From an uncultured Clostridia bacterium (GTDB taxonomy: Bacteria; Bacillota; Clostridia; TANB77; CAG-508), in contig CAMKSF010000016.1 of the NCBI GenBank assembly GCA_946415375.1, positions 1 through 33,100 on the forward strand: a stretch of DNA of 33,100 nucleotides. The letters run 5' to 3'. Each line of letters starts with the position of its first letter. Position 1 is the stretch's first letter. Below, one piece after another: positions 11,466 to 32,821 of this stretch. The position numbers were made by a program, and so were the translations under genes. The notes beneath the pieces are model-generated. The model was not told where the DNA came from. It saw only the letters and a program-made list of their open reading frames with translations, and did no database searches.

Positions 11466-11493
11466 TTGTCGAAAAGTGTCAAATTTTGCGATG
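11466..11493 (+). promoter_or_regulatory. Phased Spo0A boxes upstream of small RNA 1
   Basis: TGTCGAA (11467-11473), a perfect Spo0A box, is followed after AAG by TGTCAAA (11477-11483) and, after TTT, by TGCGATG (11487-11493). Starts are exactly 10 bp apart, the geometry of tandem Spo0A dimer sites such as that at abrB (7-mer, 3-bp gap, 7-mer). The last element ends 18 bp before the -35, as in copy 2. Confidence 0.6.
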
Positions 11494-11511
11494 AAAAGAA
11501 TTCTTAAAATA

Positions 11512-11540
11512 TTGACTTTTTCCAAATTTTGTAGTATTAT
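11512..11540 (+). promoter_or_regulatory. Sigma-A promoter of small RNA 1
   Basis: TTGACT (11512-11517), a 17-base spacer and TATTAT (11535-11540). No open reading frame follows before the terminator at 11583. Confidence 0.7.
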
Positions 11541-11546
11541 AATTAT

Positions 11547-11619
11547 AGACAATAAAAATGTATTAAATGAGCATTTACATCAAAAATAACCTCGCTGTCA
11601 AGAAGCGAGGTTATTTTAT
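11547..11619 (+). ncRNA. Predicted ~70-nt antisense RNA 1 (antitoxin-like)
   Basis: It runs from the promoter at 11512-11540 to the GC-rich hairpin at 11583-11617. Bases 11556-11581 are an imperfect direct repeat of 11669-11695 (AAATGTATTAAA, GCATT and ACATC shared). That makes this RNA complementary to the ribosome-binding/start-codon region of the reverse-strand peptide mRNA. Size, convergent layout and shared terminator match RNA II of the Fst/par locus of Enterococcus plasmids. No transcript data are available; ends are predicted. Confidence 0.65.
11583..11617. terminator. Shared bidirectional terminator of module 1
   Basis: A 14-bp perfect stem, AAAATAACCTCGCT against AGCGAGGTTATTTT, with the 7-base loop GTCAAGA. 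It ends the + strand RNA and, read on the other strand, the peptide mRNA. The stem is identical in module 2 while the loop differs. Confidence 0.85.
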
Positions 11620-11622
11620 GTA

Positions 11623-11688
11623 TTAATTATCTAATTTTGCAATTAAATAAATTAATACAATTGCAATTAAATGTATTAAAGTATGCAT
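11623..11688 (-). CDS. 21-residue hydrophobic peptide 1 (candidate type I toxin)
   Basis: 22 codons including stop. ATG 11688 is preceded by AAGGAGGTGAT, a near-perfect Shine-Dalgarno sequence. The peptide is almost all Leu/Ile/Val/Ala from residue 4, with Tyr14 and a charged end, and finishes IYLIAKLDN. The paralogue at 18107 finishes VYLIAKLDK. A single membrane helix of this size recalls type I toxins such as Ibs or the core of Fst. A sigma-A promoter (11765-11737), a conserved 5' stem-loop (CTCTT/AAGAG) and the bidirectional terminator define a ~150-nt mRNA. Toxicity is inferred, not known. Confidence 0.7.
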   Translation of the reverse strand: MHTLIHLIAIVLIYLIAKLDN

Positions 11689-11736: not shown

Positions 11737-11765
11737 ATTATATAATGGAAAGTGACAAAAATCAA
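11737..11765 (-). promoter_or_regulatory. Promoter of peptide 1 mRNA
   Basis: On the reverse strand TTGATT (11765-11760), a 17-base spacer and perfect TATAAT (11742-11737). The -10 lies in the palindrome ATTATATAAT, whose other half could serve ylmH on the + strand. The same -35, spacer length and -10 occur in module 2. Confidence 0.7.
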
Positions 11766-17954: not shown

Positions 17955-17972
17955 TTGTCGAATATTGCGATG
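17955..17972 (+). promoter_or_regulatory. Phased Spo0A boxes upstream of small RNA 2
   Basis: TGTCGAA (17956-17962), TAT, TGCGATG (17966-17972). The first box is perfect and the second diverged; starts are 10 bp apart. The second ends 18 bp before the -35, exactly as the corresponding TGCGATG does in module 1. Confidence 0.55.
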
Positions 17973-17990
17973 AAAAGATATTGATTAATA

Positions 17991-18019
17991 TTGACTTTTC
18001 ACCAAAAATGTAGTATTAT
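17991..18019 (+). promoter_or_regulatory. Sigma-A promoter of small RNA 2
   Basis: TTGACT (17991-17996), a 17-base spacer and TATTAT (18014-18019), the same elements as module 1. Confidence 0.7.
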
Positions 18020-18025
18020 ACTAAT

Positions 18026-18096
18026 AGCAATAGTAAACAAAATGTTCATAAGAATTCAAAAAATAACCTCGCTCTTAACCAGCGAGGTTATTTTAA
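18026..18096 (+). ncRNA. Predicted ~70-nt antisense RNA 2 (antitoxin-like)
   Basis: Non-coding stretch between the promoter and the hairpin at 18060-18094. ATGTTCATAAGAATTC (18042-18057) is a direct repeat of 18165-18181 with one base fewer, so the RNA can pair with the start codon and spacer of peptide 2 mRNA. AGCAAT (18026-18031) repeats at 18146-18151, within the peptide codons. The pairing segments differ from those of small RNA 1. Confidence 0.65.
18060..18094. terminator. Shared bidirectional terminator of module 2
   Basis: The same 14-bp stem as module 1 (AAAATAACCTCGCT/AGCGAGGTTATTTT) with a different loop, CTTAACC. Confidence 0.85.
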
Positions 18097-18106
18097 TTGA
18101 TATGTA

Positions 18107-18172
18107 TTATTTATCTAATTTTGCAATTAAATAAACTAATATCATAGCAATTATTTTAGCAATGATGTTCAT
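18107..18172 (-). CDS. 21-residue hydrophobic peptide 2 (candidate type I toxin)
   Basis: 22 codons from ATG 18172, preceded by AAGGAGGTG. Single predicted membrane helix with Lys6 near the start, ending VYLIAKLDK. It shares the LxYLIAKLD ending, length and all flanking signals with peptide 1, which supports both as real genes. The mRNA 5' end has the same CTCTT/AAGAG stem-loop (18203-18215). A long open frame continues upstream, but no start signals there are credible: the promoter at 18250-18222 lies inside that extension. Confidence 0.7.
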   Translation of the reverse strand: MNIIAKIIAMILVYLIAKLDK

Positions 18173-18221
18173 AAGAAATTCACCTCCTTGTAAAGATACT
18201 CTCTTAAAAAGAGGCATTATT

Positions 18222-18250
18222 ATTATAACACCAAAGTAGCTATAAATCAA
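18222..18250 (-). promoter_or_regulatory. Promoter of peptide 2 mRNA
   Basis: On the reverse strand TTGATT (18250-18245), a 17-base spacer and TATAAT (18227-18222) with TG one base upstream. Confidence 0.7.
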
Positions 18251-18259
18251 CAAAAATCG

Positions 18260-18276
18260 TTCGACAGGAAACGACA
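18260..18276 (-). promoter_or_regulatory. Tandem Spo0A boxes upstream of peptide 2 promoter
   Basis: On the reverse strand TGTCGTT, TCC, TGTCGAA (18276-18260), starts 10 bp apart, with the perfect box 9 bp upstream of the -35. Spacing and position are identical to module 1 although the gap bases differ. Confidence 0.6.
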
Positions 18277-18633: not shown

Positions 18634-20224
18634 GTGAAGATAAATAAAAAATCAAAAATAAATAGAAAAAGAAATAGTCGGAATTACTCTTATAGCTTTA
18701 GTTATTACTGTTATTGTCCTTCTCATTTTAGCTGGAATATCAATATCAATGCTATCAGGTGATAACTCTATACTAAACCAAGCAGGAAGAGCAAGAGATA
18801 TAACAGGGGAAAAGTCAATTGCAGAAAGAGTACAAATTGCATATTTAGGAGCGCTAGCGAATGGAAAGGGAAATGTCGAAAGAGCAGATTTGTTAACAGA
18901 ACTAAAAAAAGAATTTGGAGAAGATAAAATAAAAGATGGAGATATAGATGGAGCCTTAACCAAAGTAACAATAGACGGAACTGATTATAACTTTGATGGA
19001 AATTCACCTGGAGGTGGAGGAAGTACACATACAGAAACAGTAAATGGAATAGAGGTAGTAGTTCCAATACCTAGTGGATTTACAAAATCAACTGAAACAG
19101 GAGAAACAAGTGTAGCAACTGGTTTAGTTGTAAAAGATTCAAGCAATAATGAGTATGTATGGATACCAGTATTTGAATATGATAGTACAAAATGTACATG
19201 GGGAGCAGATTATACAAATGTAAGAAGTGCAACAGAAGGTTCGTCGGAATACTATACATCAATAGAAACAGCATTAAAGAATTATACAGCAACATATAAA
19301 GATTCAAGTTATACAGATGTATGGTATGGAAATTCTAGTTATGGAAAATATGGATATTATGATGGAACACAATTTGTATATTATACAAATGGAAATATGA
19401 CTCAGGCTGAATATACAGCTCTATATCACGGAATGTTGAAAAGTGTATATGAAAATGGTGGTTTCTATATTGGTAGATATGAAATGGGAATAGCAGTAGT
19501 AGATAATGTAAATGATGCAAGTACAAATACAAGAGTTGCACTTACAGAATATACACCAAGTAATTCAACATCATCTACAACAAATACAGCTTCAACAAGC
19601 GCAGTCTCAATTTCTGGAATGACAGCACCGTTAAGTAAGCAAAATGCGATAGCATATACAAGAATTACTCAATCACAAGCAGAAATGTTAGCTGAGATGT
19701 TAAATTATAGTGGAGTAACAAGCTCTCTTATGTTTGGAGTGCAATGGGATGCAGTATGTGTATATTTAGAACATTTTGGTAAAATAGATAGTAGTGCAAC
19801 AGCAAGTGGAGGAACAAGTTTTGATTCATCATATTTAACAAGTAATAATTATAGTAAACTTTGGGGAAATTATAAAAATGCAACATTTGTAATGAATAGA
19901 GGATTTTTTAGTACAACATATAGTAACACAACAGCAGTAACTTGGAATCAATATACATCTACTGCAAAAGACACGAGTACAGCATGGCTTTGTACAACAG
20001 GAGCATCTGACCAAAATAGAGCGTGTAATATATATGATTTTGCAGGAAATTTAGCTGAATGGACTCTCGAAAGGTATAGCGATGCGATCCGTCCGTGTGT
20101 CTATCGTGGCAGCGGTTTCAGCGGTAGCGGTTATGCCTCTAGCAGGTACGACGATTACACTAACTTCAGTGGTTACGGCCTTTCAGCTAGGCCCTCACTT
20201 TATATAGGTAGCCCTGTAAGCTAA
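18634..20224 (+). pseudogene. Pilin-like FGE/C-type-lectin-fold surface protein, frameshifted at its leader; DGR variable-protein type
   Basis: The main frame (~520 residues) opens with a prepilin-type helix, GITLIALVITVIVLLILAG, common to clostridial surface proteins processed by prepilin peptidase. A variable central part and a C-terminal formylglycine-enzyme/lectin-like fold follow, with NIYDFAGNLAEWTLE and a terminal RPSLYIG. That is the architecture of variable proteins of diversity-generating retroelements. The leader is broken: AAAGGAG then GTG 18634 starts MKINKKSKINRK in one frame, while EIVGITL is in another, open only from 18662 (TAA at 18659). Removing one A from the A5 run at 18666-18670 restores a perfect fusion. 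Mutation, phase variation or assembly error are all possible. Otherwise the first ATG is 18749, inside the helix and without a ribosome binding site. Confidence 0.7.
20060..20224 (+). other. Putative DGR variable region at the 3' end of the pilin-like gene
   Basis: After TGG 20060 base composition changes abruptly: codons such as CTC, GCG, ATC, CGT, CCG, GTC, GGC, TTC and GCC appear in a gene otherwise full of A/T endings. Between 20075 and 20179 about 20 of 35 codons are TAY, AGY, GAY or GGY, exactly what adenine mutagenesis of AAY codons in a template repeat would give. It encodes the ligand-face end of the FGE fold, where known variable regions lie. GGCCT/AGGCC (20177-20193) forms a stem-loop near the 3' end, possibly part of the homing signal. 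No template repeat or reverse transcriptase is in the window. Confidence 0.65.
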
Positions 20225-32008: not shown

Positions 32009-32821
32009 GTGAAAGAAAAAATCACGGTATTAATTGCGGATGACAACCAAGAATTTAGCAAAACACTTGCCACATATCTTGGAAATGAAAATGATATGGA
32101 GGTAATTGGAATCGCCAAAGATGGTGTAGAAGCAGTAGAACAAATAAAAGAATTGTTACCAGATGTTGCAATACTTGATGTTATAATGCCACATCTAGAT
32201 GGATTAGGAGTATTAGAAAGAATAAATAATAGTAATATAGTAAAAACACCAATTTGTATTATGTTATCAGCAGTAGGTCAAGACAAAATTACACAAAAAT
32301 CAATTGAGTTAGGGGCAGATTATTATGTAGTGAAACCATTTGATATTGAACTTTTGATTAAAAGGATTAGAGAAATAAAGAATTTTAAGCCAACGCCAAA
32401 TAATAGCTTTATAGCAAGAGAAGTTCCTGTAAGAAAGTACATAGAAATAAGTGATAATAAATCACCAGAAAATTTAGAAGCACTTGTTACAAACGTAATT
32501 CATGAGGTAGGTGTACCTGCACATATTAAAGGATATCAATATTTAAGAGAAGCTATAATGATGGTAATAAATGATATTGATGTATTAAATCAAATTACTA
32601 AGAGCCTTTATCCACAGATAGCACAAAGATTTGACACAACGCCATCAAGAGTTGAACGCGCAATTCGCCATGCAATTGAAGTTGCTTGGGGCAGAGGTGA
32701 ACAAGATATGGTTGAAAACATTTTTGGATATACAGTTTCAGCTTCAAAAGGAAAGCCAACAAATTCAGAATTTATTGCGATGATTGCAGATAAGTTGAGG
32801 TTAGAATTAAAGAGTGCATAG
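32009..32821 (+). CDS. spo0A: Sporulation master regulator Spo0A
   Basis: 270 residues. The receiver domain (about 1-120) has the acidic pair in LIADDNQEF, the phosphoacceptor Asp in [13 protein letters not shown], and the conserved Lys in YYVVKPFD. The DNA-binding Spo0A_C domain (about 150-268) carries the diagnostic [20 protein letters not shown], the helix that reads Spo0A boxes. Phosphorylated Spo0A commits cells to sporulation. GTG 32009 has AAGGAGG 9 bases upstream. The usual upstream neighbour spoIVB is absent. Spo0A boxes occur at both modules near 11.5 and 18 kb, so this protein may control them. Confidence 0.97.

Follow-up and report, generated by a model that had tools for sequence, protein, structure and literature searches.

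The stretch of DNA analysed here, the first 33,100 nucleotides (nt) of contig CAMKSF010000016.1 from an uncultured Clostridia bacterium (hereafter the window), contains a complete two-gene module at positions 17955-18276, in which a hydrophobic open reading frame (ORF) on the minus strand converges on a predicted antisense RNA gene. The two genes have one bidirectional terminator in common, each follows a sigma-A promoter, and TGTCGAA boxes lie outside both promoters (Table 1). In keeping with the interpretation developed below, the encoded peptide is referred to as the putative toxin and the antisense RNA as its antitoxin. A first copy with the same parts lies 6.5 kb upstream, and every element that an earlier note on this DNA had listed for the pair is present where it was described. 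As that note also observed, the same terminator stem is used with a different loop: exact copies of the arms are found at both locations and nowhere else in the window (four arm matches versus 0.05 expected, with up to one mismatch allowed), whereas the 7-nt loop differs. The antisense RNA would start near 18026 on the plus strand and the toxin mRNA near 18217 on the minus strand, with both stopping at the stem at 18062-18092; these transcript ends are estimates and, as throughout this analysis, the evidence is that of the sequence. The antitoxin terminator hairpin is predicted to fold strongly (z-score −6.5).

The expectation that the genome would hold more copies was borne out by a genome-wide search with module DNA, which located five intact modules distributed over four contigs: besides the two in the window, C1, C6 and C20 have one apiece. 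A decayed sixth copy on C12 (L009/L123, G000:C12:39640-39804) keeps the antitoxin operator, the antitoxin promoter and the toxin leader, and has lost the toxin C-terminus and the terminator. This assembly is 92% complete, and the assemblies used are incomplete. Among the 210 genomes of the genus, a covariance model of the leader and ORF detected intact modules in 10, representing 10 species, and 19 modules in all. With a broader, sequence-only model (R2), 26 further loci were read, 24 of which are the module and two of which (L138 and L140) are not; 20 of the 24 passed automatic dissection and, together with the first 19, make up the 39-module set used below. The genomes in which a module was read number at least 34 within the order, from 10 genera and two families; the E-values of both models are rough, and weak R2 matches (E near 0.01) are left out of these counts. 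The idea that the stem is no more than a bidirectional terminator of the generic kind serving adjacent genes, with a fortuitous ORF and promoters, deserves next to no credence: the stem does make a good terminator, but every strong match to the module DNA was a complete module rather than a stem devoid of peptide and boxes, which the earlier note had named as the refuting outcome, and the idea is refuted by the recurrence of the whole architecture in 39 modules whose flanking genes differ.

Perhaps the most telling feature of the module is one that the earlier note had overlooked, namely, a direct repeat (18041-18058 and 18165-18182) linking the antisense RNA to the toxin start. In each copy, the antisense RNA holds a duplicate, approximately 18-30 nt in length, of the DNA around the start codon of its own toxin, and this makes it able to base-pair with the toxin mRNA, both immediately 3' of the Shine-Dalgarno sequence and over the start codon itself. 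Repeat sequences vary among copies, yet stay matched inside each copy. For the 17955-18276 module, the calculated energy of the cognate duplex is −22.7 kcal/mol, compared with −5.8 to −9.9 kcal/mol for non-cognate combinations; the corresponding ranges for this genome are −22.7 to −29.3 kcal/mol and about −6 to −15 kcal/mol. The same separation is seen in the means for the 19 genus modules (cognate −26.8 versus non-cognate −11.4 kcal/mol) and for all 39 modules (−25.2 versus −10.5 kcal/mol), where 200,000 random pairings yielded no sum as good as that observed. Its own toxin is the best partner for 32 of the 39 antisense RNAs; most of the other seven favour the toxin of a close relative, although one of these exceptions, G160.b, is truly weak. 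This co-variation of antisense and target is strong evidence that base pairing between the predicted RNAs would be functional.

The toxin ORF evolves as a protein, to judge from its pattern of substitution. Codons 7-18 are under purifying selection, with proportions of non-synonymous (pN) and synonymous (pS) differences of 0.139 and 0.386, respectively (pN/pS 0.36), and with second codon positions nearly invariant. The co-variation described above fits the divergence of codons 2-6 (pN 0.47, pS 0.61) without divergence of codons 7-18: the first five to six codons would double as an address tag, such that tag and target diverge jointly and paralogues are spared mutual silencing. The gene pairs thus look to be built to avoid cross-silencing. 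The earlier note, which left the system unnamed and had not seen the reason for the N-terminal divergence, described the peptide body as divergent; this holds for the N-terminal part, whereas the C-terminal half (IYLIAK) is conserved. All 39 peptides are about 19-24 residues long, with a strongly hydrophobic middle and with lysine and polar residues at the C-terminus, and would presumably insert into the membrane; the consensus is MxxxxxLIAMILIYLIxKSDN in the genus and roughly MxxxxxLIALLLIYLILKLFDN outside it. Selection, as opposed to accidental duplication, had been proposed on the basis of the two window copies, and it finds support in both the constraint on the ORF and the co-variation. 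These same results bear on the suggestion that the module is a dispersed repeat element whose terminator and boxes recur through copying, and whose ORF is functionless. Several copies per genome, their similar size and the existence of decayed copies would suit such an element, but purifying selection on codons 7-18 contradicts neutral evolution of the ORF, the antisense-target co-variation is at odds with mere copying, and a copy near mnmA keeps the same place in three species; we regard this explanation as very improbable.

In the minimum free energy (MFE) fold of the toxin mRNA, the 5' CCUCUUU pairs with AAGGAGG of the Shine-Dalgarno sequence (z-score −6.0 for the whole RNA). This predicted lock is supported by the alignment of the 19 genus modules, in which 98.7% of cells are paired, versus 50-80% when the register is slid by one to three columns. 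The CTCTT/AAGAG stem-loop, which had been proposed as the 5' structure, is indeed present; however, it competes with the Shine-Dalgarno lock and is the less conserved of the two (82% of cells paired). It fits worse, and is probably not the main fold.

Table 1. Features of the two modules in the window, and the spo0A gene
Feature	Position	Strand	Basis
Module 17955-18276			
Antitoxin-side operator, TGTCGAA-N4-GCGATGAA (Spo0A-box type)	17956..17974	+	Genome pattern count versus control
Single TGTCGAA boxes	17956-17962 and 18260-18266	+ and −, respectively	Sequence
Antitoxin RNA promoter, TTGACT-N17-TATTAT	17991..18019	+	Sequence; same promoter class in 19/19 genus modules
Predicted antisense antitoxin RNA, ~70 nt, ends approximate	18026..18096	+	Promoter and terminator positions
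Direct repeat in antitoxin RNA, complementary to toxin translation start	18041..18058	+	Duplex energies
Shared bidirectional terminator, AATAACCTCGCT-N7-AGCGAGGTTATT	18062..18092	Both	Sequence and folding
Putative toxin ORF, 21 residues, MNIIAKIIAMILVYLIAKLDK	18107..18172	−	ORF translation, peptide alignment, pN/pS
Direct repeat over toxin start codon (predicted antisense target)	18165..18182	−	Sequence, duplex energies
Strong Shine-Dalgarno sequence, AAGGAGGTGA	18180..18189	−	Sequence; conserved in alignment A4
Toxin mRNA 5' leader, GCCTCTTTT, predicted partner of the Shine-Dalgarno sequence	18207..18215	−	MFE fold; pairing over 19 modules
Toxin promoter, TTGATT-N17-TATAAT	18222..18250	−	Sequence; aligned across 19 modules
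Toxin-side tandem 0A boxes, TGTCGTT-N3-TGTCGAA, second box 9 bp upstream of −35	18260..18276	−	
First copy			
Antitoxin-side operator, N14 form	11467..11495	+	Operator pattern search
Antitoxin promoter, TTGACT-N17-TATTAT	11512..11540	+	Sequence
Shared terminator	11585..11615	Both	Stem search
Putative toxin ORF, MHTLIHLIAIVLIYLIAKLDN	11623..11688	−	ORF translation
Toxin promoter, TTGATT-N17-TATAAT	11737..11765	−	Sequence; alignment across modules
Tandem 0A boxes, TGTCGATTTTTGTCGAA	11775..11791	−	Box search
Elsewhere in the window			
spo0A, likely regulator	32009..32821	+	PF08769, 7.2e-47

The boxes outside the promoters correspond to a known regulatory sequence: TGTCGAA is the core 0A box that is bound by Spo0A of Bacillus subtilis and Clostridioides difficile, with specific contacts to G2, C4 and G5 (PMC3485338). 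In the modules, the 0A core is exact and these contact bases are conserved. On the toxin side, the modules of the genus align as TGTCG-N5-TGTCGAA-N9-TTGATT, giving a tandem 10-bp spacing, and on the antitoxin side the operator takes the form TGTCGAA-N4 or N14-GCGATGAA, the two versions being one helical turn apart. The latter occurs nine times in the genome, compared with none for a reversed-pattern control, and uses only N4 and N14 out of the N2-N24 allowed. Five of the nine belong to the intact modules and one to the decayed copy, a seventh lies in the promoter of spoVS (PF04232, 1.7e-38), and there are two others. When the operator pattern TTGTCGAANATTGCGA was sought genome-wide with mismatches, it performed no better than control; it was the refined two-part pattern that separated cleanly. 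Similarly, TGTCGAA-N4..16-TTGA was not enriched overall (18 versus 15 in the control), and a spacing of 9 alone stands out (6 of the 18). The Spo0A encoded in the window has the same recognition helix, residue for residue, as the B. subtilis Spo0A structure (1LQ1) and, given that SpoIIGA is also encoded in the genome, the organism probably sporulates.

A number of further sites carry related sequences. Two further antitoxin-type operators (L119 and L121) each precede a promoter-like sequence, and that at L121 precedes a gene that resembles, by eye, PD-(D/E)XK transposase-family proteins. At L102 (G000:C5:77006), a toxin-type operator and promoter with N9 spacing are followed by no long ORF, making this a candidate small RNA. 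In G044, an operator (TTGTCGAATATTGCGATGAAAAG; L033, ~1501-1900) precedes a small hydrophobic ORF of an unrelated kind, which has a terminator of its own (MVILSYDCFLILIILLTIIIKLIIHNIKK) and is perhaps another Spo0A-linked peptide gene. Additionally, at L085 and L098, tandem TGTCGAA-like boxes lie next to two small ORFs that are of the same kind (MSTSDLIWNLVTMLIDRIE.., MTSADVIWNLLQMYFAEKEKNSKKEKETNDKNDEC).

Taken as a whole, we consider it very probable that these modules represent chromosomal type I toxin-antitoxin (TA) loci with the layout of par_pAD1 (Fst) and a different toxin; their promoters are probably switched by Spo0A. The minus strand would produce an mRNA for the 21-residue membrane peptide, whose 5' leader (CCUCUUUU) would fold onto the Shine-Dalgarno sequence and keep the fresh transcript silent. 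The plus strand would produce an antisense RNA of ~70 nt that stops at the same terminator, read from the opposite side; with its 5' part carrying the copy of the toxin start, this RNA would contact the mRNA both at the terminator loop and over the start region, thereby blocking translation. With Spo0A boxes at set positions upstream of both sigma-A promoters, the pair would probably be switched at sporulation or on entry into stationary phase.

The peptide might instead be a small membrane regulator or signal whose target at sporulation could be, for example, a kinase or protease; the antisense RNA would then tune the dose of the peptide, and no toxin would be involved. The Spo0A-type operators would suit such a role, as would the housekeeping neighbourhoods in which the chromosomal copies sit and the lack of any link to mobile elements: no relative of the leader or the peptide was found in the viral contigs, plasmids or phages searched, and we reject a mobile-element origin on these grounds. 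However, toxin loci typically show multi-copy, diversifying and mutually orthogonal antisense pairs together with a locked leader, and decayed copies exist; hence, we judge the purely regulatory role to be unlikely.

Some observations on the arrangement of copies may be added. In G150, G058, G074, G157 and G160, modules are often paired, 0.7-2 kb apart on the same strand, with distinct antisense tags within the pair. A promoterless remnant in G058 (L077, G058:C7:88843-88944), consisting of the toxin C-terminus and the terminator, adjoins clpX in a neighbourhood shared with the first window copy, and points to an old shared site. Directly downstream of the 17955-18276 module, the ORF at 18650-20224 has a pilin-like N-terminal helix (GITLIALVITVIVLLILAGISISMLSGDNSILNQAGRARD) and no Pfam match.

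Several results weigh against the proposed Spo0A-switched TA locus. The Shine-Dalgarno lock lacks compensatory changes, because the Shine-Dalgarno sequence cannot vary. No known toxin family was matched: Pfam and NCBIfam scans of 13 peptides gave nothing above cut-off, albeit a limited statement, as peptides of 21 residues make hidden Markov model searches weak. Rfam searches of the modules (gathering cut-off and E≤1) returned nothing relevant, and a profile search of the PDB with the peptides gave chance matches only. As regards control, no TGTCG box precedes either spo0A or spoIIGA in this genome; many relatives at the level of the order lack any 0A box, although Spo0A_C domains are found in all 33 of the genomes checked; and G309, G332 and G380 have box-bearing modules but weak Spo0A_C matches. 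The presence of Spo0A consequently fails to separate box-bearing from box-less modules, and Spo0A control lies outside the core module.

These observations on control, along with the extra GCGATGAA part of the antitoxin operator, which is absent from the classical 0A box, would be accommodated if the TGTCGAA boxes served another regulator and the link to sporulation were coincidental, a possibility that concerns control only and is compatible with the TA interpretation. We think it rather doubtful, in view of the exact 0A core with its contact bases (PMC3485338), the tandem 10-bp spacing, the identical recognition helix and the operator in common with spoVS. Thus, Spo0A probably controls the module in this clade, and the location of the boxes upstream of both promoters favours activation of both. 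More tentatively, and as a possibility to which we would not yet commit ourselves, phosphorylated Spo0A could directly drive both promoters of a multi-copy, mutually orthogonal TA family that acts as a sporulation-coupled timer: once Spo0A-driven transcription ends, the labile antisense RNA would decay first, leaving the locked toxin mRNA free to act in those cells that do not complete, or are past, commitment.

What chromosomal type I TA loci do has long been an open question, and their role has been called largely obscure (PMC7472228). Here, the loci are numerous across an order of gut Clostridia that are uncultured. In this clade, their promoters bear the box sequence of a developmental regulator that is well understood, which yields a concrete hypothesis for timing, namely, sporulation. 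Moreover, the 39 natural antisense pairs, cognate and non-cognate, provide data on the evolution of antisense specificity among paralogous loci. Few candidate toxins are shorter than these peptides.

The closest parallel is par_pAD1, which has convergent promoters, a shared bidirectional terminator, direct repeats at the toxin start, a 5' structure that hides the Shine-Dalgarno sequence and a small hydrophobic peptide (PMC7472228). Like par_pAD1 (Fst/RNA I-RNA II) and the chromosomal loci of the Fst family, the module has convergent promoters and a shared bidirectional intrinsic terminator, and its direct repeats likewise put the antisense complementarity over the toxin translation start. Unlike par_pAD1, the antisense tag diverges between copies, and 0A-box operators are found on both promoters. 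The Fst/Ldr signature comprises a conserved tryptophan between the transmembrane helix and the charged C-terminus, and a P/D/S/TxxxG motif (PMC7472228). Inspection of the peptide alignments shows that the Fst tryptophan and PxxxG motif are absent; the putative toxin, at 19-24 residues, also differs from Fst in having neither a charged tail nor a Pfam match. As it lacks the signature, we do not place it in the Fst/Ldr family; a published survey found Fst-like sequences in few Clostridia only (PMC6563280). The type I modules of C. difficile (CD2517.1-RCd8 and relatives) likewise combine convergent toxin and antisense RNA genes on the chromosome of a member of the Clostridia (PMC6563280), but have a long region of complementarity to the toxin mRNA. 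With the NCBIfam model of the C. difficile type I toxin (NF047374), one of the 13 peptides matched, at 15.2 bits versus a cut-off of 60.

Convergent antisense control of a membrane peptide is also seen in TxpA/RatA and BsrG/SR4 of B. subtilis; there, the toxin gene is longer and the antisense RNA overlaps its 3' end, whereas here the predicted contacts are the terminator and the start-codon direct repeat. Ibs/Sib of Escherichia coli resembles the module in its toxins of 18-19 residues, its several copies and its copy-specific antisense RNAs; however, the Sib RNAs are fully antisense to the ibs ORF, and are not known to have a shared terminator or direct repeats. In the literature searched, no paper joins Spo0A with a type I TA pair that is boxed on both promoters. 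The module resembles the Spo0A regulon in having tandem TGTCGAA core boxes upstream of sigma-A promoters and an operator in common with spoVS, and departs from the regulon, as described in that literature, in that a type I TA pair carries the boxes on both promoters. The toxin type appears to be undescribed, and we therefore file the module as a candidate new par-like type I TA family, with a new toxin family, that is probably controlled by Spo0A.
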